The position numbers and the translations under genes were made by a program. Below are positions 6,532-24,808 of a stretch of DNA of 64,000 bases, piece by piece. This DNA is from Gammaproteobacteria bacterium TMED1 (GTDB lineage: Bacteria; Pseudomonadota; Gammaproteobacteria; Pseudomonadales; Azotimanducaceae), in the NCBI GenBank assembly GCA_002167855.2, contig NHBG02000020.1, positions 217,117-281,116 on the forward strand, written 5' to 3'. Below the pieces are notes generated by a model. The model did not search any database, was not told where the DNA came from, and saw only the letters and a program-made list of their open reading frames with translations. Every line of letters begins with the position of its first letter. Within the stretch, counting starts at the first letter, position 1.

Positions 6532-7980
6532 CTAGTCGACTATTTTTATTAACGCTCCGGGTTCGGGTTGTCCATTAGGATAAAGGCCGTTCATGACTCG
6601 CAACTTGTCCAAGGCGTAGTTGGTAATCGGCGATTTCTCCGCCAAGCCTTCCATAGTAATCCCATTTTCTGCCCTCACCACCTGTAAACGCGGCACTTTC
6701 GCTTTTCTAAAGTCTTGCAGATCCATCGCATCAAAACTAAAAATTGTTGCTATGAAATCTCGATCATTGGCAATTTTACGAAGATCGTACTGACCACTAC
6801 CATATAGCTCATAAACCAGTCGTCTTCTCGCATCAAAAAGGATTGCGAAGCGCAGCGGTCTTGGGCCATAAAATGATTCGCCCCTGTCTGCTATTCCCAG
6901 AAAAGCTGGATAATCTCCGATAGTAATGCTTCTTCCCTCACGTACGCTAAGACCCAGATTTTTAGTGGCATACGATTCTGGTGTCGAGTCTTTACCCAGG
7001 CGTCCTGTAGTGATGAAGAACGAGGCATCTCCCGTTCTTGAAACGATTTGAACTCCTCGCCTCCTAGGGTTAACACGCCATTGATCAGGAAATCGAAGTT
7101 TGATGCCTAATTTAGGATGATAAAAAATGTTTCCACGAATAACGCCGACCTGCCTGCCACTTCCGTATGCCAACCCATTTAGTTTCTCCAGAAAGTCGTC
7201 AGTCGTAATAAATTCACTATACTCAGAGGCTAAATTCATTGACGCCTCAATAGCTTGCTTATACCGAGTGTCATGATCGGGGTGCGTGGACAAGAAGCCA
7301 TGATAAATCTCCGGCTTACGCTTTTCGAGCCGTGCCTGTTCAATTTCTATTCGATCCTTCGCCTTTAGAATATCGATCGTACGAAGCATAGCCTGCGGAT
7401 TATACCCCGCTTTCGCCATAAACCTCGCTCCCACCTCATCTGCCTCAAGCTCGTACTCTCTGCTATACCCTGTGACCAAGACTCCACCATACATACTTCC
7501 TAACTCACTGAGGCCGGCAGAGGCCACCGACCCCATCTGAGAGTAAACCACGGCAGAGGCTACCGAATTGATCAGATTGACGCCTGTTCTTGCCCGATTA
7601 CGTCTGAGCGCATGTCTTTCAGTCACGTGCGCTATCTCGTGGCCAAGCACCGCTGCCAGCTCAGACTCGGAGTTCATATGAGTGAGCATGCCACGAGTGA
7701 TGTAGATAAAGCCTCCAGGCAATGCGAAAGCGTTAATCGCAGCGTCATTCAGAACTGTGAATTGATACTCAAGATTAGGACGGCTGCTAAATGCTGCCAC
7801 GCGTTTGCCGACCATCGTAACGTAATCTTGTAGTGTCTTATTCTCATAAACACCGTACTGACTGATAATTTTCTTGTGCTCTTCCCTCCCCAGCTCGATC
7901 TCTTTCTCTTCGGACATGGCGAGTAGATCTGTAGTGAGCGTCGCAAACAGCACTAGAACTAAGAGACTACGAATTTTCAT
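6532..7980 (-). CDS. Secreted M48 family zinc metalloprotease (BepA-like)
   Basis: Periplasmic zinc endopeptidase of the M48 family, in the group that includes the outer-membrane protein quality-control protease BepA. I chose the ATG at 7980, not 8004, because it directly gives a signal peptide (MKIRSLLVLVLFATL..., cleaved near residue 21). Zinc ligands are visible: HEIAH with His114 and His118, catalytic Glu115, and the third ligand Glu179 in the LEAD motif. The C-terminal half (from about residue 280) lacks clear TPRs and instead resembles the compact extra domain found in many M48 proteases of this size. 482 residues. Monocistronic by appearance; target unknown. Confidence 0.88.
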   Translation of the reverse strand: MKIRSLLVLVLFATLTTDLLAMSEEKEIELGREEHKKIISQYGVYENKTLQDYVTMVGKRVAAFSSRPNLEYQFTVLNDAAINAFALPGGFIYITRGMLTHMNSESELAAVLGHEIAHVTERHALRRNRARTGVNLINSVASAVVYSQMGSVASAGLSELGSMYGGVLVTGYSREYELEADEVGARFMAKAGYNPQAMLRTIDILKAKDRIEIEQARLEKRKPEIYHGFLSTHPDHDTRYKQAIEASMNLASEYSEFITTDDFLEKLNGLAYGSGRQVGVIRGNIFYHPKLGIKLRFPDQWRVNPRRRGVQIVSRTGDASFFITTGRLGKDSTPESYATKNLGLSVREGRSITIGDYPAFLGIADRGESFYGPRPLRFAILFDARRRLVYELYGSGQYDLRKIANDRDFIATIFSFDAMDLQDFRKAKVPRLQVVRAENGITMEGLAEKSPITNYALDKLRVMNGLYPNGQPEPGALIKIVD

Positions 7981-8234
7981 ATTTTTACTGTAGCACCATC
8001 CCATTTAATTTACATTTTACAAATTTCGTTACTGACACTGCACTAAAAAGACCAGTCCACATAAGCAACAGAATCACTATCTCCCGAAAAACCAATTACG
8101 CCGAAGAAGCACGCCCTTTCATATCCTTAGACATTGCTAATGCTTTTACGTTGCAAAAACCCAAATCGCTGAACTCCTATTAAAATTTTTAGTCTAAACA
8201 AGAAAAAGATCAAACCTTCTGCTAGGGTTAAGTA

Positions 8235-9551
8235 ATGATTACCTACGAAAAAGGACGTATCTTTCTCTTCTTTGCCCTGTCCTTTTGGTGGACCGCTCTG
8301 AATGCTAACAACGAACGGGCTCCACAATCTCCGCCGTTTGAGGAAAACTCCGCGCTCCAGCTTAGACTAGAAAACTATCAAGCCACCATCGATGAAATTA
8401 AGGCTTCTCATGGGGAGTTTAGCATCCAGCTGCTCGAGCCTCTGCAAGGGCTAGGACGAACCCTCAAAGAACAAGGCAGAGAAGAAGATGCTACCGAAGT
8501 CCTGAATCATGCAATTCATTTACTTCGCAGAAATGAGGGGGTCTATACACCCAAGCAGCTAGACCTAATCAACGAACTCACTGAGATTTCCATTGGAGGT
8601 GACAAACCACTGAAGGCCAATAAACAGAAAGAATTTTCTTATTTCATTAGCTCTCGTTCTCACGGTGAAGATAGTCTAAAACTAATACCTGCAACTTACG
8701 AACTAGTGAAATGGTATATGAGAACAGGGCAGTTAAGGAAATCAATGGAACTTCTGGAAAGGACCTTAGACACCATGGAGAGTGGGGGTTGGAAGAATGA
8801 ACCAGGACTTATCGAAGCACACCTAATGCTAGCTAATGTAAAAAGACTGCGAGGTATGTGCTGTTCAGAAAAAGCGTTAGAGACGGCCCTTAAAATTGTT
8901 AAGGATAATTCAGAGCTGCCATTAGATATAGTGAATGAGGTATACCTCGAAGTTGCTGATGCATTTTTGGTCAGTCGTAAATTTAAAGAGGCCGAAAACT
9001 ATTACGCCTTAATCAAACATCAAAACAGTGAGCCATCACTTATTGTGATGGGCAAAACTCTGGATAGAACGCGTCAGAATTTCAATACAATTTACAGAAC
9101 GAACGAGGATGCAATTGGCCCCAGCTTCGTGAGACTATCAAGAGAAGAACAACTCGTAGCAGATCAGCAGCCCCCACAGAAATTTTTTGTTCGCATGTCA
9201 GAACATAGAAAGAACTTCGATATTGTTAATTTAATTGGTAAATCGGATGCTAAAAACAAAACGCCTGAGCGAATTGGCCACCCCTTCCAATTTTACACTG
9301 AGCAGGTGGAATACCTACTCAGATTTTCAAAGAAAGATAAAGACAGGCTCAAGCAAAGCGAAATAACACTGGATTTCACAGTCAATAAAGATGGCAGCAC
9401 AGCAAATATTGAGATCATCGAGACGAACTCACCATCGAAACTAAATAAGTTAATGAAACAAGTGGTATCGAAAACAACATTTAGACCGGCACTCTCGGCA
9501 GGCAAGCCTATTACTCGCGACCATTTTAAAGTAACGCAAAGGTTTTATTGA
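8235..9551 (+). CDS. Secreted TPR protein with TonB C-terminal-like domain (first of two paralogues)
   Basis: A 438-residue protein with an N-terminal hydrophobic signal (IFLFFALSFWWTALNA) and helical TPR-like repeats over about residues 30-270. The C-terminal module (about 375-438) is a TonB-C/AgmX-type alpha/beta fold: LDFTVNKDGSTANIEI followed by FRPALSAGKPI. That ending is typical of TonB-C-like domains that bind partner proteins, but there is no cytoplasmic anchor plus long Pro-rich spacer as in true TonB. The next gene is a paralogue with the same layout. The position just before the MotA/vWA cluster suggests, without proving, a linked envelope role. No exact family recognised. Confidence 0.75.
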   Translation: MITYEKGRIFLFFALSFWWTALNANNERAPQSPPFEENSALQLRLENYQATIDEIKASHGEFSIQLLEPLQGLGRTLKEQGREEDATEVLNHAIHLLRRNEGVYTPKQLDLINELTEISIGGDKPLKANKQKEFSYFISSRSHGEDSLKLIPATYELVKWYMRTGQLRKSMELLERTLDTMESGGWKNEPGLIEAHLMLANVKRLRGMCCSEKALETALKIVKDNSELPLDIVNEVYLEVADAFLVSRKFKEAENYYALIKHQNSEPSLIVMGKTLDRTRQNFNTIYRTNEDAIGPSFVRLSREEQLVADQQPPQKFFVRMSEHRKNFDIVNLIGKSDAKNKTPERIGHPFQFYTEQVEYLLRFSKKDKDRLKQSEITLDFTVNKDGSTANIEIIETNSPSKLNKLMKQVVSKTTFRPALSAGKPITRDHFKVTQRFY

Positions 9552-9583
9552 GGGATCATGCTTAAAATTATACCGTATCGGTC

Positions 9584-10948
9584 ATGAGAAAAATAAAGAA
9601 TATAGTAATGGTAATATTTTGCTTGGCGCACCACTGCGTTCACGCAGATGGGGAGATGCTTGATCTCTTGGTTCCCTCAATAACTGTCTCGGAAGGATCC
9701 TCGATAAGCTACACCGATATAGAGAGTCTTCTGGCAGACAGATACTTTGACGACGCGATAGCCAGTGCTGAGGAAATTGTCGAGAATAATAACTTTCTCA
9801 AGACGACAAAACCCATCGCCTACGGGAAGCTTGCAACGAACTTAGCGATAGTCCTTGGCCATGCAGGACAATACGAAGATTCACTGGCAATATCGGAAAA
9901 GGCCCTCGCACATCTGGAATCCTCAGTACCCCAATTTAGTCCCGAGCTGGTAAACGTAATTTTGGCCAGATCATACATACTAATCACGATGGAAAAGCTA
10001 GACGAGGCTAGGCAGGAACTTAGGCGCGCGCAACACATTACCCACCGTGATGACGGGGTTTTTACTGTCAGCCAACTACCAATAATAGAAAAGCTTTTTG
10101 AAATCAGTGCACGGACCGGTGACTATCTTAATGCTGATAAGCAAAAATTATTCACTCTACAAGTCTTGAAGAAAACTCACGGGCCTCAAAGTGAAAAATT
10201 ACTTCCTAAATTAATAGAGCTCGGACGCTATTATGGCGAGAGAGCCTCATCTACTGGTCAATTTGGGGATGGGCAACTAAATCATCTTCGTCAATCACTA
10301 TTCCGACAATCGATCGGTAAATATGAAGAAGCGATTTCAATCATCGAGGGAAAATACGGCAAGTCAGACCCGAGACTTATCGAGCCACTGCAAGGGATCG
10401 CCAGGACGAGATACATTCAACGCAGCAACAGAAAGTCGGAACAAGCAGCAGAACGCGCACTAGCGTTAATAGAGGGCAATCCCGCAACGGATACACAAGA
10501 CAAAGTTAACGCAATTATCAGACTTGGCGATTTGTATACCCTAACAGCGGATAAGCGCGCGTCCGATTTGTATCTCAGAGCTTGGCGACTGATCCAGGAG
10601 GGCGAGGAATTCAAGGGACAAAAGTCTCAAATATTTAGAAGACCACAGCGTCTTTGGCCAAGGGCGCGAACTATCGTTTATCTCAACAGAAGACCCAGCA
10701 CTGCAGATAATTCGGATAAGGAATTATTCATTAACGCTGAGTACACTGTGAAGTCTAACGGGCGCGTGGGAAACGTGAGACTCCTAAACAAGAACGTGCC
10801 AAACAACGAGGTTAGAAGCCTTCGCACTCACCTTTACGAAACGCGGTTCCGGCCGAGAATTGTCGAGGGAATAATTGTCGACACGCCAAAACTTGTTTTT
10901 AAACAAAGATTTCTTGTTGCTGAACCTCGTCCCCCACTGGACACTTAG
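9584..10948 (+). CDS. Secreted TPR protein with TonB C-terminal-like domain (second paralogue)
   Basis: A 454-residue relative of the preceding gene. It has a signal peptide (cleavage near ...HHCVHA, residue about 21), TPR-like helical repeats over about residues 45-340 (for example ALAHLESSVPQFSPELVNVI and similar helix pairs), and a C-terminal TonB-C-like module (YTVKSNGRVGNVRLL ... TRFRPRIVEG). The shared start-repeat-FRP ending pattern points to tandem duplication followed by strong divergence. The gap to the first copy is 32 bases, so they are probably one transcript. It converges with the lipoprotein pair on the other strand. Function unknown; a periplasmic adaptor role is inferred from the domains. 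Confidence 0.75.
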   Translation: MRKIKNIVMVIFCLAHHCVHADGEMLDLLVPSITVSEGSSISYTDIESLLADRYFDDAIASAEEIVENNNFLKTTKPIAYGKLATNLAIVLGHAGQYEDSLAISEKALAHLESSVPQFSPELVNVILARSYILITMEKLDEARQELRRAQHITHRDDGVFTVSQLPIIEKLFEISARTGDYLNADKQKLFTLQVLKKTHGPQSEKLLPKLIELGRYYGERASSTGQFGDGQLNHLRQSLFRQSIGKYEEAISIIEGKYGKSDPRLIEPLQGIARTRYIQRSNRKSEQAAERALALIEGNPATDTQDKVNAIIRLGDLYTLTADKRASDLYLRAWRLIQEGEEFKGQKSQIFRRPQRLWPRARTIVYLNRRPSTADNSDKELFINAEYTVKSNGRVGNVRLLNKNVPNNEVRSLRTHLYETRFRPRIVEGIIVDTPKLVFKQRFLVAEPRPPLDT

Positions 10949-10954
10949 CAGATG

Positions 10955-11605
10955 CTAACTCCCGCCCAGAATAAAATCCCGAAGCTGGTTAGCTAGGCCC
11001 TTACATGCAGCATTACCGGGCCTTGCTATTATCGGAATAGGAATTACAAGGCCTGCGATATAGGAGGTGCCCGACGCGTCTGCACTTATTTTGCCGGCGG
11101 TCGTTAGTTCATTAACATCCCAAATCGAAGCCTGATAAGATGCATCTTGTTCCCAATAACTCATGCCAAAACATCCCCCCCCAAAAGTTGTGAGCGTACA
11201 GCTCATCGAGCCACCCTTATTAGTGGTGAGGGTATCACCATCAATCCATGCTAAATATCGAATTTTAGCCTCATCAATACGCGCTCTTACCCCAGGCTCA
11301 GTAAAAAGGCGCCCCAGTTCGGATGCACTGGTAGGTGCTGTTCTTGGTTCAAACCAAGGATACAAATCATCTTTAAATTTATCTTGCGGTATCAACCGGA
11401 TGGCTCCACTACCCCCAGATAGTTCCGCTTCAATACACTCCGTAAAGCTAGCCTTCGTTTCTCTTTCGTTATAACTAGCTCTACCTAAAATCACCATAGC
11501 TTCATCAGATTCTATACCGGTCACTATATCCCGTGACTGCTCGATCCTCGAAGATACACAGCCGCTTAGAACAAGACATAAGAAAATGGCGCATCTTATG
11601 GTCAT
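10955..11605 (-). CDS. Predicted lipoprotein, unknown function
   Basis: A 216-residue protein with a clear lipoprotein signal (MTIRCAIFLCLVLSGC, Cys16), so it is expected to be membrane-anchored in the periplasm. The mature part holds one region with conserved-looking Trp/Gly residues (residues about 118-160, ending in a Cys-rich FGGGCFGMSYW) and a C-terminal helix. I do not recognise a family. Its start overlaps the end of the upstream lipoprotein gene by four bases, so the two are translationally coupled and probably act together. Convergent with the TPR pair. Confidence 0.72.
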   Translation of the reverse strand: MTIRCAIFLCLVLSGCVSSRIEQSRDIVTGIESDEAMVILGRASYNERETKASFTECIEAELSGGSGAIRLIPQDKFKDDLYPWFEPRTAPTSASELGRLFTEPGVRARIDEAKIRYLAWIDGDTLTTNKGGSMSCTLTTFGGGCFGMSYWEQDASYQASIWDVNELTTAGKISADASGTSYIAGLVIPIPIIARPGNAACKGLANQLRDFILGGS

Positions 11606-12210
11606 TTAGCCAATCCCTTCTCCTGCCATATTCCTGCTTCTTTCAGAGCAGTCGCCATAGCAGGTGCCACTTCGGTAGCTATTCTGGCACCGCCATCTCG
11701 GATGGCAAGCATTGTAGCCTCCCCCACAGCCTCACCAGACCCAAACCTTGAAGCCTCTGCTTTTCCATAACCCACGAAACTCCAACGACCAAGATTTTTT
11801 CCATATCGGTCCTTTAGTTGAATTTCGTACTTTATCGAAACCTCATGAAAACTTAGTGTTGACATCGCTGGAACAAGAAAACCGTACTCCACTATTCTTG
11901 GAATAAATACTGCGTCCAATACCGATCTTTGTTCCGAGGTTAATTCGGGTGAGTCGATTTCTAATACTTCAGCGAAGAGAGCGCCAGATAGGTTGCGGAA
12001 AAACTTTAGATTCTGATTACCCAAGTCTATTTCGTAAGCACCAAATTGGGGTAAATTTTCCTTATACTGATATGATTTGAATTCCTCAGAGTAATAAACA
12101 CCCAGGCGAGCCGGTATCTTTTCAACGAGAGGTGTCGGCAAAGATCCCTCGACCAGTACCATGTTCGTGCAAGAGCTTTGCGTGAGGGCCATCAGGAAGG
12201 GCAACAACAT
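11602..12210 (-). CDS. Predicted lipoprotein, unknown function, coupled to the next lipoprotein gene
   Basis: The open frame extends up to 12366. However, the ATG at 12210 has an AAAGG site about eight bases upstream and gives a short hydrophobic signal ending ...LTQSSC (Cys14), a weak but plausible lipobox, so I place the start there (202 residues). The longer version would put an unlikely 52-residue basic leader before this signal. The mature part has no recognised domain; a beta-rich middle is followed by an Ala/Gly-rich C-terminal helix (GEAVGEATMLAIRDGG). It overlaps the downstream lipoprotein gene by four bases. Divergent from the 12617 gene. Confidence 0.68.
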   Translation of the reverse strand: MLLPFLMALTQSSCTNMVLVEGSLPTPLVEKIPARLGVYYSEEFKSYQYKENLPQFGAYEIDLGNQNLKFFRNLSGALFAEVLEIDSPELTSEQRSVLDAVFIPRIVEYGFLVPAMSTLSFHEVSIKYEIQLKDRYGKNLGRWSFVGYGKAEASRFGSGEAVGEATMLAIRDGGARIATEVAPAMATALKEAGIWQEKGLAK

Positions 12211-12616: not shown

Positions 12617-13840
12617 ATGAAAAGAGTGCTTTTTAACCTTCCAGTACTTCTCACGCTCGTGCTTCTTACCTCGTGTGGGTCTAATCCACCGCAACCACCA
12701 GCGCCACCTGTCGCGGTTCCGAGCCCGCCTTCGATGCCAAGCCCACCCGCGATGCCAAGTCCGTCCTCCTCAGAGCAATCAAACGAGCGCCCCTCCGAGG
12801 CAGGCGCGCCGCCCTCGAGCACTGCATCTTCTTCTTCTGATAATAATGAAATCCAGGAATCTAGAGAGGAAATAGGTCAAACGTTACGAGAGTCGGGCGA
12901 TCGTATTATCCGAGCAAGTAGAGACCTGAATATTGGCAACGATGATCCTCTAATTCCCTCAGGGGATTCGGAAGCATCCCAGCAGAAACAGGCGGGAGTC
13001 GATCAAGCGTCCGCGGGTACACCCCCCCCTCTGAAAGAAACGGCTGAGCAGAGCCTAGGAAGCTCGAATAACCTGCTGGAAGACGAAATTAGGGAGACAC
13101 AGGACGCTTTAGAAAGGGCTGCTGTTGCACTGCAAACTACAGGTTCGATAGTGGAAGCCACAAGCAGTCAAGAGGAGGCTTCGGCAGCCGAGGTCGAACT
13201 GACAAACGCAAGAGTGGCCATAATTGTTGCGGAACAAAAGCTTGTCGAGCTAAGGGAAATTCTGCAGGACACAGATTACAGTAGTGATGATATCGATATG
13301 ATCGTTTCAGCATCAGAAGCCGCGCTTGAAGAGGCTAATTTGGCAGTAGTACTCGCGTCAGAAATCGTCGGTGAAACGCTTCAAATGCCGACGCAGAAAT
13401 CCGGGGGTGATGAGTCTCAACGTGGGGCCAATGGACGATTGAGCGAACTTGATAAGGAGTTAGAAGATTCCTTGATCATTTTTGATGGTGCTCTGGGAGA
13501 AAGAAAGAGGATATTATCTGACTCAACGCCAGCACCCGTGCAAGCAAGGGAGACCTCAAATTCTGGTATTGCTTCCGAGGAAGGTGAGGCAGCAGAGGTC
13601 AATATAGCTTCTAATGATCGAGAAGTAGTTGGCGATGAACAAAGCGGTTTAACCCTAGGGCAAGGGGATTTCGGGGAGAGCTCAGACACCAGTGAGAATT
13701 CAATCCCCGAAGATATTCCAGATGCTCAAGGAGACGATATCGTGGCGAAGCAACTAAGGGAAGCAGCATTGGCAGAGAACAACCCCGCAGTAAAAGAGAA
13801 GCTTTGGGAAGAGTACAGACGTTATAAGACTAGCCTTTAA
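12617..13840 (+). CDS. Pro/Ser-rich lipoprotein with coiled-coil region, first gene of the MotA-vWA cluster
   Basis: A 407-residue lipoprotein (signal MKRVLFNLPVLLTLVLLTSC, Cys20). Directly after the lipid Cys comes a Pro/Ser/Ala low-complexity tether (residues about 21-75, repeated PSPP/MPSP units), the sort of spacer that lets an anchored domain reach across the periplasm. Then follow acidic, Gln/Glu/Ala-rich helical stretches (about residues 80-260) likely to form coiled coil, and a short C-terminal helix (KQLREAALAENNPAVKEKLW). No enzymatic motif is seen. Fourteen bases separate it from the next lipoprotein gene. Its membership of the downstream cluster is inferred from strand and spacing. 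Confidence 0.72.
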   Translation: MKRVLFNLPVLLTLVLLTSCGSNPPQPPAPPVAVPSPPSMPSPPAMPSPSSSEQSNERPSEAGAPPSSTASSSSDNNEIQESREEIGQTLRESGDRIIRASRDLNIGNDDPLIPSGDSEASQQKQAGVDQASAGTPPPLKETAEQSLGSSNNLLEDEIRETQDALERAAVALQTTGSIVEATSSQEEASAAEVELTNARVAIIVAEQKLVELREILQDTDYSSDDIDMIVSASEAALEEANLAVVLASEIVGETLQMPTQKSGGDESQRGANGRLSELDKELEDSLIIFDGALGERKRILSDSTPAPVQARETSNSGIASEEGEAAEVNIASNDREVVGDEQSGLTLGQGDFGESSDTSENSIPEDIPDAQGDDIVAKQLREAALAENNPAVKEKLWEEYRRYKTSL

Positions 13841-13853
13841 TGGAGGAAAACAC

Positions 13854-15032
13854 ATGTCTTTAAAATTTAGTACCTCACTTATCATTTTTAGTTTGTTCCT
13901 AGGGGGTTGCACGTCTACAAAGGTGATTAACGCGAATTCAACTCCAGCGATCCAGGCAGTTGGGAGTCAAGCAGACGAATTCCTTCTAGACATCGGCATT
14001 ACGCCATTCGACCCTAATATTCCATCCAAAGAAGAAGACTTAGCCAATGGTTTTATAATCCCCGATGTTAGAAGGGCAGAGTCGGGCTATATCGCTTATC
14101 ATCTTAAAGACACCCTTGAGCTTACCGGCAATTGGGGCGCTGTTCGAGTCACGCCCAAAACTACAGACACAGTGGGCTTGCACGTCACTGGAAAGCTTCT
14201 CATCTCTGATGGAGAAAAACTCCGAATAAGTATTCGGGTAGTCGACGCAACTGGAAAGGTTTGGATAAATAAAACGTACCAAGATACTGCGAGTAAATTT
14301 TCTTATGAAGTCATTAAGGAGGACCCTTTCCAAGATTTATATAACGAAATTGCCAACGATATACTTCTCGTTAGACAAAAAAATGCCCCTGATCGAATTA
14401 GGGAAATCAAGATGGTTGCAGATTTGCGATTTGCGTTAGACCTAGCGCCCGATGCTTTCGAGGGTTATATATCCGAGGATAAGACGCGATTAATCCCGAT
14501 GCAGTTACCTGCAGAGGATGACACAATGATGCGTCGCCTAGAGAAAATCAAAGAGCGAGAGTATGTATTCGTGGATACAATGGACGAATACTATGGTCGG
14601 TTCTATACAAATATGCGTGAATCCTATGACGAATGGCGGCTTGCGACTTATGAAGAAGCAATCCTACTACGACGGCTTCAGAAACAATCAAGAAACAGAT
14701 TGATTGGTGGGGCTGCGCTGGTTGCGGCAGGTATTTATGCAGGTAGCGAGAGCTCCACCTATGCAGAAACCCTTGCCTCATCAGGTGTGGTCTCTGGCGG
14801 TGTAGCTGCAATTAGAAGCGGACTTAACAGACGAAAGGATGCAGAGATTCATGCTCAGTCACTCCGAGAATTAGGACAGTCCCTAGGAAGTGAAATAGGG
14901 CCCTCCGTTCTCAAGATAGAGGGTGAAACAATCGAACTTGAAGGCTCAGCCGCGGCCCAGTATGAGGAATGGCGTAATATACTCAGAGCAATCTATGTCG
15001 AGGAAACTGGCCTAACCACCGATCTACAATAA
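13854..15032 (+). CDS. Predicted lipoprotein of the MotA-vWA cluster
   Basis: A 392-residue lipoprotein (signal ending LFLGGC, Cys19) with a strong GGAGG ribosome-binding site. The region around residues 95-145 (VTGKLLISDGEKLRISIRVV then DATGKVWINKTYQ) resembles the CsgG/LpoB-like fold used by envelope lipoproteins. The second half is helical, with an Arg-rich MRRLEKIKEREY segment and, near residues 285-310, a Gly/Ala-rich hydrophobic helix (GGAALVAAGIYAG) that could insert in or lie on a membrane. Fifteen bases precede the pseudokinase gene. Family not recognised with certainty; no enzyme motif. Confidence 0.74.
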   Translation: MSLKFSTSLIIFSLFLGGCTSTKVINANSTPAIQAVGSQADEFLLDIGITPFDPNIPSKEEDLANGFIIPDVRRAESGYIAYHLKDTLELTGNWGAVRVTPKTTDTVGLHVTGKLLISDGEKLRISIRVVDATGKVWINKTYQDTASKFSYEVIKEDPFQDLYNEIANDILLVRQKNAPDRIREIKMVADLRFALDLAPDAFEGYISEDKTRLIPMQLPAEDDTMMRRLEKIKEREYVFVDTMDEYYGRFYTNMRESYDEWRLATYEEAILLRRLQKQSRNRLIGGAALVAAGIYAGSESSTYAETLASSGVVSGGVAAIRSGLNRRKDAEIHAQSLRELGQSLGSEIGPSVLKIEGETIELEGSAAAQYEEWRNILRAIYVEETGLTTDLQ

Positions 15033-15047
15033 TCAAGGTTCTGTGCT

Positions 15048-17294
15048 ATGGCTTACCCTATAAAAGGACAAGACTTTGACAGATTTACACTACTCGACTT
15101 AATATCTGAGTCCTCTTCGACGACAACTTGGTTAGCCTTTGACGGGAGCTCGAACGAACGCATCTGCCTGAAGCTTTACAAAGAAGCTTCATCCGAAAAA
15201 CAAGTATCTGACACCATCGCCTTTATCTCGAAAAGTAAGGGCCTTAATCACCAAAATATTCTGCGTGTGTTCGATGTTGGTATCGTAGAAAAGATTCCCT
15301 ACCTGAGTCAGCAGTTTCTGAGAAACGCAAAGCCTGTTCCACTTAACAATAGATCACTATCAGAGAACTTAGCATTAATAAGCGAGATAATTGACGCTTT
15401 AAGTTTCGCTCACAGCCTTGGTTTAGTCCACGGAAAGCTTAGCCCTAGTAAGCTATTGTACGACGAAAAGGGGCATTTATGGGTTAGTGAGTTCGGCGTT
15501 AGGTTAGGCAAGATTAATGGTTTATACAGCGCACCCGAAGCGGGAGAAAAAGCTACAAAAGTCGACGATATCTACTCTCTGGGCGCACTGACCTATCGAA
15601 TCCTAGCTGGTGAAGAAGTCACCGAGAGAAGACCGGATCTTGATTTAGTGCCCTCCGAGCTGAGACTGGTGGTCAAGGCAATGCTGGAGCCTGCTGACTA
15701 TGAAAGACCGGATGATCTTTTAGAGATTAAACAAGTTTTTGTTCAGTATGCTGAACAACTTGCTGAAACTTCGTTAATTTCCTCCGATACGTCTTTTGTA
15801 AAACGGGAAGAAATACCAATAGCGTCCAGACAAAAAACCTTAGTAAGTAATAGCTCAGAAAAAAAAGACATTCCCATCCAAACAGTAGGATTGGCGCTAC
15901 TTATCCTTATTGGTTTAGCAGCTCTAGTGTTCTTTTACCTCCCAAGTAATAAAGCCATAATAATTGAGCAGCCCGTTGGAATAATTGAAGAAATTTTTAA
16001 AGATGGTGATACGCTATCAGATATCAGGCCAACAGAGCGATTCGCGCCATTTGAGCTGGCTCAAATAGAGCTTGCCAAAGAGAAAAGTATCGAAATCGCG
16101 GATCAAATACTCCGGCTACAAATCAAGCTAGAGGACCTCAAAGTGGACCTTTGGGCTAAGGAGTCCTACGATTCACTGACGGCAAATGCCCTTCTGGCTG
16201 ACGATGCTTTCAGGGGTAATGAATATCGAGAAGCTCTCAGAATATTCGAGGCTACTCATAAAAGCCTAGAAGGCCTTTATGTGTCAATTGAAAGAATCCT
16301 TCTGGAGCAGGTTGAAATTGGAAATACGGCCCTTGAGGATGGCAACGCAGACCTCGCTGTAAAAGCCTTCAGAATAGCTGTAGCACTCGATTGGGAAAAT
16401 GATTCGCTTAAGAGCCAGCTGAAAAGATCGGAAAACTTAAAGACTGTAATAGAAATCGTCGATTCAGCGCGGCTCTCGGAGAAAGAAAACAAACTGGAGT
16501 CTGCACTAAAGTATTACGAGGAAGCTGCAGGCAAAGACCCGCTCTGGAAACCAGCAGCGGCCGGGATGCTGCGCGTACAAGAACGCCTCCGGCAAGTCGA
16601 TTTTGAAAATATAATGTCCGAAGCGTTCGCAGAGCTATTGCAAAAAAACTATGCGGCAGCCCGAAGTGCATTTCAAGCTGCAACAAAAATTTTTCCAAAT
16701 TCATCCGAGCCTGAAGATGGGCTGCTGCAAATTGAGCTTGCGGAAAAAAGAGATGAAATTGATATCCTTAGGCTTACGGCAGAACAGAATCTGCGAGAGG
16801 AGTTCTGGGAAGAGGCGATTCTACAATTCAAGCAAGTCCTACAGCTCGATAACACACTAGTTTTTGCGCTTAATGGGCTAGAGGCAGCAAAGCAAAGGCT
16901 GGATTTACGTAATCGGCTGCAGTACTTTTTGGATGATCCGACAGTTATGAAGGACGATAACCAATTAAGAAAAGCAAAAAAAACAATATCAGACGCGAGC
17001 GTATTCGCTGCCAGTAGCGCAGCCACTGCCAACCGAATAGGCTCGCTCTCTCGATTGATCTCTTTAGCTCGGATACCGACTAAAGTATTAATCGCTTCAG
17101 ATGGTAAAACGGATATTTTTGTTTATCAGGTGAGGCGTCTTGGCAAAGTTACCTCCCAAGAACTAGAGCTTTATCCTGGGACTTATACAATCGTTGGTAA
17201 GCGAAGAGGATATCGCGATGTCCGCCACACTCTAAAGTTATTAGCAAATGCCCCAACTAATACGATTAATATCAGCTGCGAAGAAAAAATCTAG
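15048..17294 (+). CDS. Membrane-anchored serine/threonine pseudokinase with periplasmic TPR-like and PEGA-like regions
   Basis: 748 residues. Residues about 12-235 have an STK fold: the ATP Lys42 (CLKLY), the APE motif (162-164) and the helix F DDIYSLG (173-179) are kept. The catalytic loop reads HGKLSPSK at 128-135, so the catalytic Asp is Lys130 and the Mg-binding Asn is Lys135. The DFG motif is EFG at 148-150. This strongly suggests a pseudokinase that binds rather than phosphorylates. A single membrane segment (about 279-298) follows, then a helical TPR-like periplasmic region (about 330-640) and a PEGA-like end (VLIASDGKTD ... YPGTYTIVGKRRGY). It lies four bases from the PEGA-FGE gene. 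Role: probably a scaffold or signal input of the cluster's membrane complex. Confidence 0.86.
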   Translation: MAYPIKGQDFDRFTLLDLISESSSTTTWLAFDGSSNERICLKLYKEASSEKQVSDTIAFISKSKGLNHQNILRVFDVGIVEKIPYLSQQFLRNAKPVPLNNRSLSENLALISEIIDALSFAHSLGLVHGKLSPSKLLYDEKGHLWVSEFGVRLGKINGLYSAPEAGEKATKVDDIYSLGALTYRILAGEEVTERRPDLDLVPSELRLVVKAMLEPADYERPDDLLEIKQVFVQYAEQLAETSLISSDTSFVKREEIPIASRQKTLVSNSSEKKDIPIQTVGLALLILIGLAALVFFYLPSNKAIIIEQPVGIIEEIFKDGDTLSDIRPTERFAPFELAQIELAKEKSIEIADQILRLQIKLEDLKVDLWAKESYDSLTANALLADDAFRGNEYREALRIFEATHKSLEGLYVSIERILLEQVEIGNTALEDGNADLAVKAFRIAVALDWENDSLKSQLKRSENLKTVIEIVDSARLSEKENKLESALKYYEEAAGKDPLWKPAAAGMLRVQERLRQVDFENIMSEAFAELLQKNYAAARSAFQAATKIFPNSSEPEDGLLQIELAEKRDEIDILRLTAEQNLREEFWEEAILQFKQVLQLDNTLVFALNGLEAAKQRLDLRNRLQYFLDDPTVMKDDNQLRKAKKTISDASVFAASSAATANRIGSLSRLISLARIPTKVLIASDGKTDIFVYQVRRLGKVTSQELELYPGTYTIVGKRRGYRDVRHTLKLLANAPTNTINISCEEKI

Positions 17295-17297
17295 AAG

Positions 17298-19355
17298 ATG
17301 AACGAGCAAAATAATGACGTCAACAGCGAGTTAGAAGCTGTAAACTTCAAGAAGGCGGATAGAGCAACAAAGAAAAGGAATCGGATCCTCAAACCCTTAT
17401 CTCTGTGTCTAATCTTTTTGTTCACATTACTTTGTTCAGTGACACTATTTACACTTCAGGCCAGGGGATTAAAAATAGCCGTTACTCCCGAACCAGATTC
17501 TCTGGAAATTCTTGGTGGGTTCTTTACTTACCAATTGGGCGAGCGTTTTTTAATTTTACCTGGGGACTACCGGATCCGAGTGAAAGCTGAGGGTTACAAA
17601 GACCTCGAAATGGCCATAACTGTGGGAGCAGAACCGAATCAAACGATTGAGCTTGAGATGGCAAAACTACCAGGTTTTCTAATTGCGAATTCAGCGCCAA
17701 CCGCCGATATAGACGTATTTATTGATGAAGTCTATCAAGGGAAAACACCATTGAGGACTAAAATAGAGCCAGGGCTACATGATATTTTTTTTCAGAGTGA
17801 GCGGTACCTTACTTACAGTACTAAAATCCAGATAGAAGGTCGCAATTTAGAGCAAACAGTCACTGCAAACCTTTCTCCTGCGTGGGCAGAACTCAATATT
17901 TCATCAGACCCGTCCTCTGCAGAGATTGTCGTTGGTGAGGAAAAAGTTGGAATAACGCCTACTAAAATAGAACTTCTTCAAGGTGACCACACAGTCAAAT
18001 TAAGTAAAGCTGGCTTCAAAGTTTGGCAATCCGACATAACAGTATCTGCTGGATCAGTCATAAATCTTGATTCAATAAACCTTCTCAAAGCAGATGGTCA
18101 GTTATCAATCGTCACGGATCCTGCAGGCGCAAACATAACTATAGATGCAAAATATCAAGGACAAAGCCCTCTCGTGGCGACATTGGAACCAGAAAAAACA
18201 CACGAGATTCTCTTAACGAAAGCCGGCTTCGAGCCAATTCAAAAAGCTATCGAAGTCGAGCCCGGTCAAGAAATCACGCTCAAATCAAATCTAATTCCAA
18301 TGACAGGGGTCGTGGAATTAGAAATAGAACCAAATGATGCAACCGTTCTACTTGACGGTCTTGAACTCAAGAGCAACACCAGACGTCTCACCCTCTCAGC
18401 AACTAGACATAGGATCCAGATTATAAAATCCGGTTACGCCACTAAAGATATGATAATTATTCCTAAAGCTGGCTTGACGCAGGAACTAGTTGTTCAGTTG
18501 AAAACCGAAGCCGAGGCTAAAGTCGCTGCAATCCCCTCAAAAATTCAAGTGATGGAGAACGTCACTGCAAAACTGATTATCCCAGATAAATTTGCAATGG
18601 GTTCAAAACGAGGGGAACGAGGGAGGAGAACAAATGAAATTGAAAAAGAGGTGCAACTAGCGCGACCCTTTTATCTTGGTACCAAGGAAATCACTAATCT
18701 AGCCTTCAAAAAATTTGACCCGTCACATGATTCTGGAGTGCTTGGTCGGTCATTACTAAGTGATGATGATAGGCCAGTGGTTAACATTTCTTGGGAACAA
18801 GGCATTTTATTCTGCAACTGGTTAAGCAAACGTAATAATCTTGAAGTTGCTTATGAAAAAGTGGGTAATATCTGGCGTCTTAAGGAGCCCATTAGTACAG
18901 GATTCCGTCTCCCGACAGAAGCGGAATGGGCTTGGGCTGCTAGATATAATCAGGGTAACTCTGCAACTAGATTCCCATGGGGGGACTATATGCCGCCACC
19001 GCCAAACGCTGGAAATTACGCGGATGAGTCTGCAGCAAACATGTCCTCTTACTATATCATCGGGTACAACGATAGTTATAGAGGAACTGCACCCGTTGGT
19101 AGCTTTCCCGCAAACACTTTCGGGATCCAGGACCTAAATGGTAATGTTTCAGAGTGGGTTAACGATATTTATGCAACCAGTGCTAGGAGAGGCGTTTTTA
19201 TTGATCCAATAGGACCAAAAACAGGCGATTATTACGTAATCAGAGGTGCTAATTATACTAGTGGACGCTTTAGTGAATTGCGATGGACTTACAGAGACTA
19301 TGGCAAGACTGGCAGGCCAGAGGTGGGCTTTAGAATAGCGAGGTACGCGGAATGA
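17298..19355 (+). CDS. Membrane protein with five PEGA-like repeats and a non-catalytic FGE-sulfatase-like domain
   Basis: 685 residues. A short cytoplasmic N-terminus precedes one membrane segment (about 34-53). Five PEGA-like repeats follow, at about 56-110, 126-180, 197-250, 267-320 and 337-390, recognisable by PxxA-x-I-x-(I/V)-D ... P-G-x-H motifs. The C-terminal domain (about 427-683) is FGE/SUMF1-like: FAMGS, RLPTEAEWAWAAR, GIQDLNGNVSEWVNDIY and VGFRIAR. The region holding the active-site cysteines in true formylglycine-generating enzymes (IRGANYTSGRFSELRWTYR here) has no Cys, so enzyme activity is unlikely. Topology puts PEGA and FGE parts in the periplasm, perhaps touching peptidoglycan or lipoproteins. 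It overlaps the next gene by four bases. Confidence 0.87.
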   Translation: MNEQNNDVNSELEAVNFKKADRATKKRNRILKPLSLCLIFLFTLLCSVTLFTLQARGLKIAVTPEPDSLEILGGFFTYQLGERFLILPGDYRIRVKAEGYKDLEMAITVGAEPNQTIELEMAKLPGFLIANSAPTADIDVFIDEVYQGKTPLRTKIEPGLHDIFFQSERYLTYSTKIQIEGRNLEQTVTANLSPAWAELNISSDPSSAEIVVGEEKVGITPTKIELLQGDHTVKLSKAGFKVWQSDITVSAGSVINLDSINLLKADGQLSIVTDPAGANITIDAKYQGQSPLVATLEPEKTHEILLTKAGFEPIQKAIEVEPGQEITLKSNLIPMTGVVELEIEPNDATVLLDGLELKSNTRRLTLSATRHRIQIIKSGYATKDMIIIPKAGLTQELVVQLKTEAEAKVAAIPSKIQVMENVTAKLIIPDKFAMGSKRGERGRRTNEIEKEVQLARPFYLGTKEITNLAFKKFDPSHDSGVLGRSLLSDDDRPVVNISWEQGILFCNWLSKRNNLEVAYEKVGNIWRLKEPISTGFRLPTEAEWAWAARYNQGNSATRFPWGDYMPPPPNAGNYADESAANMSSYYIIGYNDSYRGTAPVGSFPANTFGIQDLNGNVSEWVNDIYATSARRGVFIDPIGPKTGDYYVIRGANYTSGRFSELRWTYRDYGKTGRPEVGFRIARYAE

Positions 19356-19630
19356 AATATATTGTCCTAGTCTTTTCTCTTAGTCTACTAATCTCTGTGG
19401 TCAGTACAGGTGATCCTATTACTGCAGTTGGTCAGATTGAAAACAATGAAGACCAAGAGACTCCAGGCGGAGCAACACAAACCACCGATGAGCCGGTCAG
19501 CAAGGTACAAGAGTCGACTCCTCAAGCAGGGGATTTAACGGAAAAAACCCTTGGAGAGAGCTTTCGTAATTTTGTTCCAAGTGAGTTGATAAGCGCCGAC
19601 AATGCTGTCCCATTCCCAGTGGATATTTAA
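19352..19630 (+). CDS. Small secreted protein of the MotA-vWA cluster
   Basis: A 92-residue protein with an N-terminal signal peptide (IVLVFSLSLLISVVSTG) followed by a Gln/Glu/Thr-rich low-complexity stretch and a short C-terminal LGESFRNFVPSELIS segment. The ATG overlaps the PEGA-FGE stop (ATGA), and a gene with a good AAGGA site follows after eight bases, so it is translated as part of the cluster. No domain recognised. Being coupled to both neighbours argues that it is real; it could be an accessory periplasmic subunit. Confidence 0.66.
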   Translation: MKYIVLVFSLSLLISVVSTGDPITAVGQIENNEDQETPGGATQTTDEPVSKVQESTPQAGDLTEKTLGESFRNFVPSELISADNAVPFPVDI

Positions 19631-19638
19631 GGAACATT

Positions 19639-20433
19639 ATGAAGAAACAATTACCGTTCGAATTCATCTTCCATATATTTTCATTATTCATTGCAATCAT
19701 CCTCGTTCACGCCATATACGTTTCTATAGTAAGGCCAAACGCCACGGCCGTATTGGAGGAGCAGGCAATCCAAATCAATGAAAATCCTAACTATATTCCT
19801 GAAAGATCAATTTATGTCGTCATCAAAGATTTAGAACAAGAATGTTGTTTCGTTCTAATGCTTTGGGCTATTTCGCTAATGGGTTATAAGTCCTTATCTT
19901 CTTTTAATGAGAGAAAAATACTAGAAACCGACCTTATACCAATTAATCAAGGTACGAGCATTCTCGCGGAAGACGCGCGCGAATACTCTCGACCGATACA
20001 AGCATTATCGGAAAAACAACAGAATTATCTGCTTCCAAGGGCGGTCTTAACTGCGCTGCATCGCTTCCGATCAACAAGAAATATACAGGACGTTTCGAGT
20101 TCAATCAGGGCAATATGTGAATCAGAGTCGGAGAGGCTTGATTCAGAGCTGTCAATGATTAGGTATATAGCATGGGCTATTCCTTCGATCGGGTTCTTGG
20201 GCACTGTGAGAGGGATTGGCCAAGCCTTGGGACAGGCACACAAAGCTGCACAAGGGGATATTGCTGGTGTAACGCAAAGCCTTGGGGTCGCATTTAATTC
20301 AACCTTTGTCGCTCTTCTTATAAGTATTCTTGTTATGTTTCTCTTGCATTATCTTCAAGTAACACAAGAACGAATCGTCCTTGACACGGAAGAATACTGC
20401 GATAAAAGATTAATTCAGCACCTTCAGAACTGA
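19639..20433 (+). CDS. MotA/TolQ/ExbB-family ion channel subunit
   Basis: Inner-membrane A subunit of an ion-driven stator-like complex. The 264-residue protein has four membrane segments, at about 8-30, 68-87, 174-198 and 214-240, with a cytoplasmic region between the second and third, as in MotA rather than three-segment ExbB. The family signature lies in the third segment (AIPSIGFLGTVRGIG, about 180-194), and the fourth segment carries GVAFNSTFVALLIS. The two vWA proteins downstream have matching B-subunit-like first segments. Ribosome-binding site AAGGA. Ion type (proton or sodium) cannot be read with confidence. Confidence 0.9.
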   Translation: MKKQLPFEFIFHIFSLFIAIILVHAIYVSIVRPNATAVLEEQAIQINENPNYIPERSIYVVIKDLEQECCFVLMLWAISLMGYKSLSSFNERKILETDLIPINQGTSILAEDAREYSRPIQALSEKQQNYLLPRAVLTALHRFRSTRNIQDVSSSIRAICESESERLDSELSMIRYIAWAIPSIGFLGTVRGIGQALGQAHKAAQGDIAGVTQSLGVAFNSTFVALLISILVMFLLHYLQVTQERIVLDTEEYCDKRLIQHLQN

Positions 20434-20447
20434 TACAGGACAAAGAA

Positions 20448-21758
20448 GTGACGATAGGTATTATCGAGTTAAATGATCTAGGCATCCAAGTCGCATGCGA
20501 CGATGAAATCGTGGCAATAAGTCCAGGATTTGCGCTGATTAATAATAATGGTGAGCTCCTAGTTGGAAATGACGCCTTAAAAGAAACCCGATTATTGCCA
20601 AGCTGGAACAACAACCATTTCTGGAATCACCTCAACACGAACCCAATCCCTAACGCTCGGGATTCTATAAGACACAACGCAGACCTTGCTTTTGCACATC
20701 TAGAGCTCCTTTGGGAGGAGTTAAAAGGGCGTGTAGATACTGTCATTTTCGTCGTACCGAGTTTCTATAATCGGGCTAGTCTCAGCCTTCTCTTAGGTAT
20801 GGCAGAGGAATGCGGAATACCTACTTCTGGTGTCGTTGATTTATCCATCGCAGCTGCCTGCAACCAAAAGCTGAGAGATATTTCTCTTTACCTCGACATC
20901 CATCTGCATCGCATAACGCTGACAAGGTTATCAAATAGTCTAAATCTATCGCGCACTAATTATATAACGGTTTGTGAAACTGGTATGGCCACACTACTAG
21001 ATAGGTGGGCAAGCGCAGTTACAAATCAGTTTATTCAAGTGAAACGATATGACCCACTTCATGATGCTAAAAGTGAACAGGCGCTATATGACGCGCTACC
21101 TGATTGGATTCACAGTTTCGAAACTAAACGAAACAACCTATTTAATTTAGATATCGATGGGCTGAAGCAGTCGGTAAGTATCTCCGTAGAACAACTTATG
21201 CCTGCCTGTGCGCCTCTTTATCCTCAGATAATACAGGCGATTCGCAAACAAGCCAGTATAAATGAAACCTCCACTTTGTTTCTCTCTCATCGCTTCAACG
21301 GTGTCCCTGGTATCAAGGATACGCTAAACCTCTTAGAAAAAATTGAATTGGTTGAGTTACCGTCAAATGCGGCAATTGCTGGAGCCTTCCAGCATGCCGA
21401 CAAAATAATGTCAGGAGGTGGTACCATCACCCATGTCGTTAATTTGCCGATCAAAGCAGCCTCAAGTGCAGATGAGACAGTAACGAGGAATCAGGCAACT
21501 CATCTACTTTATGGTGATCATGCAACAGCCATCGGGCGAGTATTCAAATTATCAGAGGAAATTTCGAGCGGACTGATACAGGATTTGTCCAACCCGATTT
21601 GCTCCATTTATCCCAAAGGGGTGCATGTTTATGTGGACATCCATAAAGCCAACAAAATTAAAATTAACGGTGCGCCCGTAACTAAACAGACAACGCTAAA
21701 GCCAGGAGATACTATAAGCTTAGGGGATCAAATTATGACTTTGATCTCAGTAACTTGA
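20448..21758 (+). CDS. Degenerate Hsp70/actin-like protein with FHA-like C-terminus
   Basis: 436 residues, GTG start at 20448 behind an AGGA site. The N-terminal 330 residues resemble the Hsp70/actin ATPase fold in order of elements: IGIIELNDLGIQVA in place of the phosphate-1 loop, YLDIHLHRITLTRL in place of phosphate-2, and FLSHRFNGVPGIKDTL in place of the adenosine motif. The Gly-rich nucleotide-binding residues are poorly kept, so it may not hydrolyse ATP. The C-terminal part (about 350-436) ends INGAPVTKQTTLKPGDTISLG, an FHA-like strand pattern that could bind phosphothreonine. It has no membrane segment, so it is cytoplasmic. Its TGA overlaps the ATG of the first vWA gene (TGATG), so the two are coupled. 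Confidence 0.7.
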   Translation: MTIGIIELNDLGIQVACDDEIVAISPGFALINNNGELLVGNDALKETRLLPSWNNNHFWNHLNTNPIPNARDSIRHNADLAFAHLELLWEELKGRVDTVIFVVPSFYNRASLSLLLGMAEECGIPTSGVVDLSIAAACNQKLRDISLYLDIHLHRITLTRLSNSLNLSRTNYITVCETGMATLLDRWASAVTNQFIQVKRYDPLHDAKSEQALYDALPDWIHSFETKRNNLFNLDIDGLKQSVSISVEQLMPACAPLYPQIIQAIRKQASINETSTLFLSHRFNGVPGIKDTLNLLEKIELVELPSNAAIAGAFQHADKIMSGGGTITHVVNLPIKAASSADETVTRNQATHLLYGDHATAIGRVFKLSEEISSGLIQDLSNPICSIYPKGVHVYVDIHKANKIKINGAPVTKQTTLKPGDTISLGDQIMTLISVT

Positions 21759-22843
21759 TGGCCAAACGTCGCGAGTTAAGTATCTTTAACCTCTCCTTTC
21801 TAGACATTATGTCATGCGGATTTGGAGCTGTGATCCTAATCTTCGTCGTTATTAATAATGCATCCCAGGAACTCAATGCAAATCCTAAAACAGAACTGCT
21901 TGCAAAGATAAAGAAAGTAGAGGAGGAAGTCGAAGAGGAAATATCAAAACTGAGGGAAGTTAGTGTGGCCATGAAGGAAACCGACCAGCAAGCCCTCGAT
22001 CAGCAAGAACTTATAAAGCAACTTACAGCAGTTATCGCCAGTACTAACAAACAGATAGCTTCCCTCACTGGCACTAATCAAGACGAAGTTGCGAAGTTAA
22101 AAGAAGAAATAAAAAAACTTGAAGAGGAAACTAATCTCCTTCAAACAAGTCAATCGGAAGAGGTTGCGGGTGGTAAAGATCTTTACAGTTTCACCGGCGA
22201 TGGCGATCGGCAATATTTGACAGGGCTTAAAGTTGGCGGCAGACATATCCTTATACTCCTGGACGCCTCAGCGAGCATGCTGGATAAAACGATTGTGAAC
22301 GTCATCCGTACGCGAAATTTATCAAGAGAACGTAGGATAGGATCAGAGAAGTGGCAAAGAGCTGTCAGGACGGGTGAATGGTTAATCGCGAACCTGCCTC
22401 GACAAGCGAGTTTTCAGTTGTATACGTTTAATGAAAGCGCTAAGTCAGTGATACCTGAACAAGATGCCAAATGGTTATCAGTTCAAAATCGAGACAATAT
22501 CGAAGAAACCGTTAATTATCTAAACCAAATCGTTCCAAAGGGTGGTACTTCTCTTCATCATGCGTTAGCTAAAGCGAATCTACTTGAACCGCCACCAGAT
22601 AATATATTTCTCATCGTGGATGGCCTACCCACCCAAGGTTTGAATCCACCGAAAAGCAACGTAGTGTCAAGTCAAGAGAGGAATGCACTATTTGTAGATG
22701 CAATTTCTCTAACCTCAGGAAATATTCCAATAAATGTTATCTTATTTCCAATGGAAGGAGATCCATTAGCTGCAGCATCGTATTGGCGGTTAGCTCAGAT
22801 TACGTCAGGCTCATTTCTTGCTCCGTCCGAGGATTGGCCATAA
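21758..22843 (+). CDS. vWA protein with ExbD/MotB-like membrane segment and coiled coil (B subunit 1)
   Basis: 361 residues from the ATG in TGATG. A TTG at 21755 is possible but less likely. Basic N-terminus, then one membrane segment (about 14-33) beginning F-L-D-I-M with Asp16, matching the F-I-D-V-M start of ExbD and the Asp used for ion passage in ExbD/TolR/MotB. A charged coiled coil (about 48-135) follows. The periplasmic vWA domain (about 160-355) has an intact MIDAS: DASAS, the Thr in GGTS and the Asp in IVDGLPTQG. The stop codon overlaps the next ATG (TAATG). I infer a stator B subunit whose peptidoglycan-binding part is replaced by a metal-binding adhesion domain. Confidence 0.86.
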   Translation: MAKRRELSIFNLSFLDIMSCGFGAVILIFVVINNASQELNANPKTELLAKIKKVEEEVEEEISKLREVSVAMKETDQQALDQQELIKQLTAVIASTNKQIASLTGTNQDEVAKLKEEIKKLEEETNLLQTSQSEEVAGGKDLYSFTGDGDRQYLTGLKVGGRHILILLDASASMLDKTIVNVIRTRNLSRERRIGSEKWQRAVRTGEWLIANLPRQASFQLYTFNESAKSVIPEQDAKWLSVQNRDNIEETVNYLNQIVPKGGTSLHHALAKANLLEPPPDNIFLIVDGLPTQGLNPPKSNVVSSQERNALFVDAISLTSGNIPINVILFPMEGDPLAAASYWRLAQITSGSFLAPSEDWP

Positions 22844-23844
22844 TGAAAACGAAACGCAGAGAAATCGAAGGATTGAGTCTATCATTTTTGGATGTTATCA
22901 GTTGTGGTTTTGGTGCTCTTATCCTTCTCCTCGTATTAACAAAAGTTTTCGACCCAAGTGCTATTGACGATAGCATAGATAATTTAGAGGATTATCTTAT
23001 TACTCTGCAAAAAGATCTTCTGGCTAAGCGTAATGATATTCGAGATATGCGAACAGAAATAATTCGCCGAGAAGATCTGGAAAGTGAAGAAACACTTCGG
23101 TTAACTGGACTGCAAGCAGAACTTCTTCAATTACAGGAAAAATATGAAACTATCGTAAGAAAAACAAAAGTCGAAGAAATCATAAAAGCAAGATTGAGTG
23201 TCGCCAAGCAAACACTAACCGAGGAAATGCAGCGTCTACTAAAGAATTCGATTGTAAAAGATAATGCTGTAGGCGGGATACCTGTAGATAGCGAGTACGT
23301 GATTTTCATCATAGATACTTCTGGAAGTATGTATACCAATGCGTGGCCACTGGTTTTACAGAAGGTCTCTGAAACACTTGAGGTCTACCCTAAGCTCAAG
23401 GGCATTCAAGTGATGAATGATATGGGAAACTATATGTTCTCACAGTACGCCAATGAGTGGATACCCGATACTGCAGCAAGACGAAGCGCTATTATAAATC
23501 GCTTACAAAACTGGAACGTCTTTAGTAATTCGAGCCCCGTTGAGGGAATCACAAAGGCAATCTCTACTTTCTATAGACCCGACCGAAAGATAAGCCTTTA
23601 CGTGTTTGGTGACGACTTCTCCGGAAGATCTGTAGAGCAAGTCATACAAGTCGTTGATAAAATCAATAGAGTAGACTCAGAAGGCAATCGACTCGTTCGA
23701 ATCCATGGGGTGGGTTTCCCGGTGCTTTTCTCTCTGCCACCAAGATATCAGGCATCAGCTATTCGATTTTCAATTTTGATGCGCGAGCTTTGTATACGAA
23801 ATGGGGGTACCTTTGTGGCACTAAATGACTACCGTCTATTATAA
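22843..23844 (+). CDS. vWA protein with ExbD/MotB-like membrane segment and coiled coil (B subunit 2)
   Basis: 333 residues from the ATG in TAATG at 22843; the frame is open further upstream but that overlaps the previous gene. It has the same plan as its neighbour: basic N-terminus (MKTKRREIEG), one membrane segment starting F-L-D-V-I with Asp17 and sharing the SCGFGA core, a coiled coil (about 40-130) and a vWA domain (about 148-330). The MIDAS start is DTSGS; the Thr position looks like Ser (NSSPVEG), and a later Asp lies in YVFGDDFSG. Divergence between the two suggests non-identical partners of one complex. Last gene of the cluster; a possible weak hairpin lies at 23883-23904. Confidence 0.86.
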   Translation: MKTKRREIEGLSLSFLDVISCGFGALILLLVLTKVFDPSAIDDSIDNLEDYLITLQKDLLAKRNDIRDMRTEIIRREDLESEETLRLTGLQAELLQLQEKYETIVRKTKVEEIIKARLSVAKQTLTEEMQRLLKNSIVKDNAVGGIPVDSEYVIFIIDTSGSMYTNAWPLVLQKVSETLEVYPKLKGIQVMNDMGNYMFSQYANEWIPDTAARRSAIINRLQNWNVFSNSSPVEGITKAISTFYRPDRKISLYVFGDDFSGRSVEQVIQVVDKINRVDSEGNRLVRIHGVGFPVLFSLPPRYQASAIRFSILMRELCIRNGGTFVALNDYRLL

Positions 23845-24801: not shown

Positions 24802-24808
24802 GCAAGTA

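Follow-up and report, generated by a model that had tools for sequence, protein, structure and literature searches.

Do the genes at positions 12617-23844 of the window (the whole 64,000-nucleotide stretch analyzed here) encode one envelope machine, and is this machine undescribed? The ORF check identified nine ORFs in this interval, all located on the + strand and overlapping or narrowly separated, with junctions ATGA at 19352, TGATG at 21756-21760 and TAATG at 22841-22845. This agrees with the compact single-strand arrangement reported by the initial annotation. The conserved starts of B1 and B2 are ATG 21758 and ATG 22843, respectively, and a TTG at 22783 lies upstream of the conserved B2 start. 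The genes of the proposed unit are real, but its extent was set too small, since the unit reaches to about 6532 (Table 1). We defined seven genes as the core: lipo1, lipo2, the TPR protein, PEGA-FGE, motA, B1 and B2.

Table 1. Genes of the cluster and of its extension in the window, with the evidence for each assignment.
Gene or product	Position	Strand	Evidence or remark
M48 metalloprotease, accessory	6532..8004	-	Peptidase_M48 E 2e-38; homologue after lipM1 in distant loci
tonA, secreted TPR protein with TonB_C domain, accessory	8235..9551	+	TonB_C E 1e-6, TPR_12 2e-7
tonB, second TPR protein of tonA type	9584..10948	+	TPR_12 E 4e-12; in the window's close relatives
lipM1, lipoprotein without known family	10955..11605	-	lipobox LSGC; alignment
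lipM2, lipoprotein without known family	11602..12210	-	proposed start M at 12210 (MLLPFLMALTQSSC); alignment
lipo1, low-complexity lipoprotein, core	12617..13840	+	lipobox LTSC; 5' of lipo2 across families
lipo2, lipoprotein, CsgG/PelC/TolB-N/FlgT-like domain and long helical C-terminal part, core	13854..15032	+	structure model
Membrane TPR protein (TM 280-298), degenerate N-terminal kinase domain	15048..17294	+	TPR part core, kinase optional
PEGA x5 and non-catalytic FGE protein, inner-membrane-anchored, core	17298..19355	+	TM 34-52
sml, small protein, hydrophobic segment at N-terminus, frequently present	19352..19630	+	
motA, MotA/ExbB/TolQ-type A subunit, core	19639..20433	+	MotA_ExbB E 2e-16; T189, T222 invariant
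Hsp70-type nucleotide-binding domain (degenerate motifs) and FHA, optional	20448..21758	+	model, profiles
B1, one TM helix with Asp16, coiled coil, vWA with MIDAS, core	21758..22843	+	
B2, one TM helix with Asp17, coiled coil, vWA with MIDAS, core	22843..23844	+	

Pfam matches confirmed the domain themes first noted for this cluster: Pkinase (E = 4e-10) and TPR (2e-8) in the third protein, five PEGA repeats (2e-48) and an FGE domain (3e-35) in the fourth, MotA_ExbB in the A subunit and vWA in the two last proteins. The E-values for vWA are 2e-6 and only 0.01, and the second assignment rests on intact MIDAS residues. The kinase domain of the window presents HGK instead of HRD and EFG instead of DFG; an HRD motif occurs in L018 and L024, which belong to two other families, and DFG in L024. 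Most homologues of the TPR protein are devoid of the kinase domain, and we therefore rejected the kinase as an essential part of the system. Thus, the membrane pseudokinase with TPR initially proposed does show degenerate motifs in the lineage of the window, but its kinase is an optional add-on. Formylglycine-generating enzymes usually possess a catalytic cysteine pair. The FGE domain contains a single cysteine in 37/41 homologues and none in the other 4/41; with at most one cysteine in all 41 sequences the pair is missing, and the domain is probably structural. A catalytic FGE was rejected on this ground, in line with the non-catalytic domain already suspected.

The motor subunits present invariant residues at the positions expected to matter for ion coupling. 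Residues T189 and T222 of motA, as well as the surrounding proline and glycine residues, are kept in 46/46 A subunits, and the membrane-helix Asp is invariant in both B subunits (D16 in 46/46 B1 sequences and D17 in 47/47 B2 sequences). These Asp and Thr residues match the ion-coupling residues of MotAB, ExbBD and TolQR as given in PMC12204202. Both vWA domains keep the MIDAS motif DxSxS and further MIDAS-type residues. The 46 B1 and 47 B2 sequences split into two distinct clades and constitute a heterologous pair, so the pair is old. No tolR/exbD-like or other B-type gene was found among the conserved genes. The claim of one A-type and two B-type subunits is well supported by the invariant residues, together with the synteny and co-occurrence described below.

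Two other proteins of the cluster were characterized from structure models. The lipo2 family has no Pfam entry and a PDB sequence-profile search with lipo2 yielded nothing convincing. Its AlphaFold2 model (34 sequences, mean pLDDT 81) presented structural matches over residues 31-177 to FlgT (Z = 10.9), PelC (10.1), CsgG (9.4) and the TolB N-domain (9.2), which are mid-range scores (Z about 9-11) covering one domain only. At this level of similarity, the top matches agree on a predicted domain from a group of ring-forming or outer-membrane-linked proteins. The protein encoded between motA and B1 had been described as actin/FHA-like. Its model (pLDDT 90) matches the nucleotide-binding domain of Hsp70 (Z = 29.5, rmsd 2.7 over 319 residues), and profiles recovered Hsp70 together with an FHA domain at the C-terminus, the latter being weak by Pfam alone. 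The FHA part of the description is therefore retained, and an actin-like filament protein was rejected in favor of an Hsp70-type domain with FHA. This domain is devoid of the glycine-rich phosphate-binding motifs (the stretch reads LDIHLHRITLT), which makes ATP turnover doubtful, and the only residue kept is acidic (position 150; D in 20/28 and E in 8/28). The gene is dispensable across loci and represents an optional add-on.

We further analyzed the distribution of the system across genomes. In a scan of species genomes, nine close relatives carried this gene set in unchanged order at every locus with a sufficiently long contig. The B2 profile identified the system in 28/369 genomes of the class and, within a second bacterial class, in a single family (f208). 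The system was also present in 24/25 genomes of the window's own family. Synteny was evaluated on the 33 loci where the sequence upstream of B2 spans at least 9.5 kb. All seven core genes were present in 31/33 of these loci and their order was the same in 30/33, across many gammaproteobacterial families and the second class, which excludes a chance grouping. The three exceptions to this order all belong to family f94, where motA is located behind B2 or was not seen, and two of them are without lipo2. At L026 and L031 of this family, motA lies 3' of B2 and the Hsp70-FHA gene directly before B1, as in a rearranged operon.

An independent search for lipo2 in the same 369 genomes identified 27 genomes, 24 of which are shared with the 28 genomes carrying B2 (Fisher test, P about 2e-30, a value that serves only as a guide because the genomes are related and not independent). 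Among the exceptions, G290 (L060) is at a contig end and the Hsp70-FHA gene of G312 (L039) is located at a contig end; G213 and G314 (family f94) present most of the cluster but lipo2 was not found; another case is the decayed remnant L058 described below; the further exceptions are G098 (L059) and G317. The initial annotation had proposed to look for joint occurrence with conserved order in distant genomes, and both the ordered loci and the genomes sharing lipo2 and B2 agree with it. A tblastn search of B2 against 72,556 plasmids yielded no match, and a plasmid-borne element was rejected accordingly. Two atypical loci were also observed. L058 (G185:C1, 7873-10805), in a 2.2 Mb single-contig genome, is a decayed remnant of the operon where the frames of lipo1, lipo2 and the TPR gene are broken up and are followed by no motor gene. 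L061 (G759:C60, 6436-14837) is a second, diverged and minimal copy extending from lipo1 to B2 and lacking Hsp70-FHA; it occurs in a family member whose genome carries the normal copy as well.

The comparison of distant genomes shows that the module extends beyond the nine genes first noted. In these genomes, the core is preceded by a TPR protein whose end resembles TonB_C, and lipM2 and lipM1, in many cases also an M48 protease, are found 3' of the core on the same strand. Specifically, the tonA homologue lies directly 5' of lipo1 in L027, L029, L030, L032, L045, L046 and L065; lipM2 directly follows B2 in these seven loci and in L022; lipM1 comes directly after lipM2, 3' of B2, in distant loci; and M48 homologues stand beside the system in L027, L029, L032, L045, L046 and L065. 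L065 carries thirteen collinear genes on one strand: tonA, lipo1, lipo2, the TPR protein, PEGA-FGE, sml, motA, Hsp70-FHA, B1, B2, lipM2, lipM1 and M48. In the window, as in its close relatives L062 and L063, the homologues of M48, tonA, lipM1 and lipM2 are located just 5' of the core and are partly inverted (6532-12366 in the window). The TonB_C/TPR protein and the M48 protease are frequent partners of the core, and tonB is conserved in L003, L004, L005, L008, L011, L062 and L063. PDB sequence-profile searches with lipM1 and lipM2 returned nothing convincing. The lipM1 family, which has no Pfam entry, presents four invariant cysteines besides the lipobox cysteine (C57, C136, C145 and C201), suggesting disulfides. 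Directly 3' of the cluster, a glyoxalase-like gene and a methyltransferase (23953-25429 in the window) are kept only in the window's close relatives, which indicates that they probably lie outside the machine.

Part of this module has in all likelihood been described before, on bioinformatic grounds. PMC12204202 (2025) reports membrane-tethered vWA proteins that form heterologous pairs, in close linkage with tolQ-like genes and in the absence of tolR. These motors present a conserved Asp in the transpore helix, were modeled with AF3 as inserting into a pentamer and are found in Proteobacteria and Verrucomicrobia; their function is given there as unknown, and homologues of Idiomarina loihiensis appear in Fig. 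4c-d. Our cluster likewise combines a TolQ-like A subunit and a heterologous vWA pair with a membrane-helix Asp, without TolR/ExbD and in Proteobacteria. As judged by these described features, its motor core is in all likelihood the one of PMC12204202. However, the text of that study names only the motor genes for the vWA family and no wider set, whereas the system of the window comprises seven core genes and up to 13 genes in total. We found no other description of the wider module in open-licence papers, where absence is weak evidence. The claim that the system is undescribed must therefore be divided: the motor core alone was in all likelihood already known, and the module of seven core and up to 13 genes appears to be new.

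The cluster also resembles better-known ion-driven systems without belonging to them. Like Tol-Pal, it combines an ion-driven A subunit and Asp-bearing B helices with putative outer-membrane lipoproteins (as suggested by their lipoboxes) and a TolB-N-like lipo2 domain, but it is devoid of TolR, TolA and Pal and its B subunits carry vWA domains. As in GldKLMN (T9SS/gliding), an ion-driven motor is tied to an FGE-like protein; in contrast, the FGE protein of the cluster is anchored in the inner membrane and contains PEGA repeats, and no GldL, GldM or GldN match was obtained. Relative to the curated cut-offs, the FGE protein scored 90.5 of 350 bits for GldK and 42.6 of 458 bits for GldJ, and the A subunit 35 of 221 bits for TolQ. 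Membership in GldK/GldJ, TolQ or ExbB was rejected, as all scores fell far below the curated cut-offs, and the analogies to GldL-GldM with GldK/GldJ and to AglR-AglQ-AglS drawn in the initial annotation hold only partially. Zorya (ZorAB) shares the MotA/ExbB-type A subunit and its Asp-bearing partner, but the cluster lacks a nuclease/helicase effector and distributes vWA over two different B subunits. The A subunit matched ZorA only marginally (16 bits, E = 0.001; PADLOC) and did not match the ZorA NCBIfam models, and domain searches found no ZorC/ZorD-type effector (nuclease or helicase) in any gene of the cluster. With only marginal model scores and no effectors, Zorya or another defense system was rejected, as had been anticipated for Zorya.

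Our results suggest that the cluster probably encodes an ion-driven, force-transmitting machine that spans the envelope and is built around a 5:2 motor. Reading the genes as one ion-driven machine is well supported by synteny, co-occurrence and the invariant motor residues. Gene content, order, co-occurrence, conserved residues and the folds of single parts are directly established, and from these we infer assembly, ion coupling, location and force transfer. By analogy with known motors, five MotA/ExbB-like subunits would assemble into an inner-membrane ring enclosing the single membrane helix from one copy each of B1 and B2. The machine would be powered by an ion gradient, probably of protons: ions would flow past the invariant Asp in each B helix and the Thr ring formed by the A subunits, and would thereby rotate or ratchet the B dimer, with its coiled coils and vWA domains bringing this motion into the periplasm. 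There, the PEGA-FGE and TPR proteins may act as scaffolds anchored in the inner membrane, and lipo1, lipo2, lipM1 and lipM2 would form the outer-membrane side, as their lipoboxes suggest, with lipo2 contributing a domain of the type that forms rings in PelC, CsgG and FlgT. Where present, the kinase domain and the Hsp70-FHA protein could serve as cytoplasmic regulators.

Regarding its role, the stable presence of the system in the window's family, the four lipoproteins, the TolB/PelC-like domain, TonB_C and M48 point indirectly to a Tol-Pal-like function in maintaining or assembling the outer membrane or the structures on its surface; this is the most likely role, although it is weakly supported. 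We tentatively propose, at somewhat below even chances, that the cluster represents a separate and unnamed class of trans-envelope machines of up to 13 parts. In this class, a MotA-type ring would directly drive a heterodimeric vWA axle, which would act through the PEGA/FGE and TPR scaffolds on a lipoprotein ring of the outer membrane and serve an outer-membrane or surface biogenesis process not carried out by any known system.

The main rival shares the motor mechanism and differs in the role. The motor might energize an export or surface-motility apparatus by driving the transport of proteins or polymers through the outer-membrane ring of lipo2, or movement along it, as in T9SS/gliding GldKLMN or Agl-Glt. 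The FGE domain is indeed closest to GldK (E = 1e-25), the lipo2 domain resembles those of the secretion-ring proteins PelC and CsgG and of FlgT, which forms a flagellar ring, and vWA domains occur commonly in proteins for adhesion and gliding according to PMC12204202. We nevertheless consider this role rather unlikely: no outer-membrane channel, adhesin or cargo gene is conserved among the shared neighbors, the GldK/GldJ scores are far too low, and the FGE protein is located here in the inner membrane and is not an outer-membrane lipoprotein.

Because kinase and FHA domains are found within the cluster, a module for sensing, signaling or defense can also be envisioned, where the vWA/PEGA parts would detect a surface or an envelope insult and relay it through the channel to the kinase and the Hsp70-FHA protein in the cytoplasm. 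In PADLOC, the kinase domain weakly matched defense proteins that bear kinases, and the channel weakly matched ZorA, which goes in the same direction. This appears improbable, however, since the kinase is degenerate in the window and absent from most families, the Hsp70-FHA protein is dispensable, the conserved genes include no nuclease, helicase or other effector, and the cluster is nearly universal in the window's family. Finally, the motor core could work alone next to lipoproteins, PEGA-FGE and TPR proteins serving other processes, which would agree with the motor genes being the only ones named in the text of PMC12204202. Such mere neighborhood is very hard to reconcile with an order kept in 30/33 loci from many families and two classes, and with genes that are present or absent jointly and are carried jointly even by the second, diverged copy at L061. 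Among these explanations, we favor the ion-driven machine, with a tentative role in the outer membrane or its surface.

To our knowledge, a job has been assigned to very few ion-driven 5:2 motors, namely those of flagella, Ton, Tol, gliding/T9SS and Zorya. By bringing motor, periplasmic scaffold and lipoproteins together in one cluster, our analysis turns the bare vWA motor family, as it stands in PMC12204202, into a defined list of parts where core and optional components are told apart and which is open to deletion, tagging and reconstitution. Residues Asp16/Asp17 and Thr189/Thr222 constitute direct handles for mutational testing. As a minor observation on the A subunit, genome G000 (2.16 Mb) carries eight genes of the MotA_ExbB family, and the cluster's own motA is the one that scores lowest against this family.
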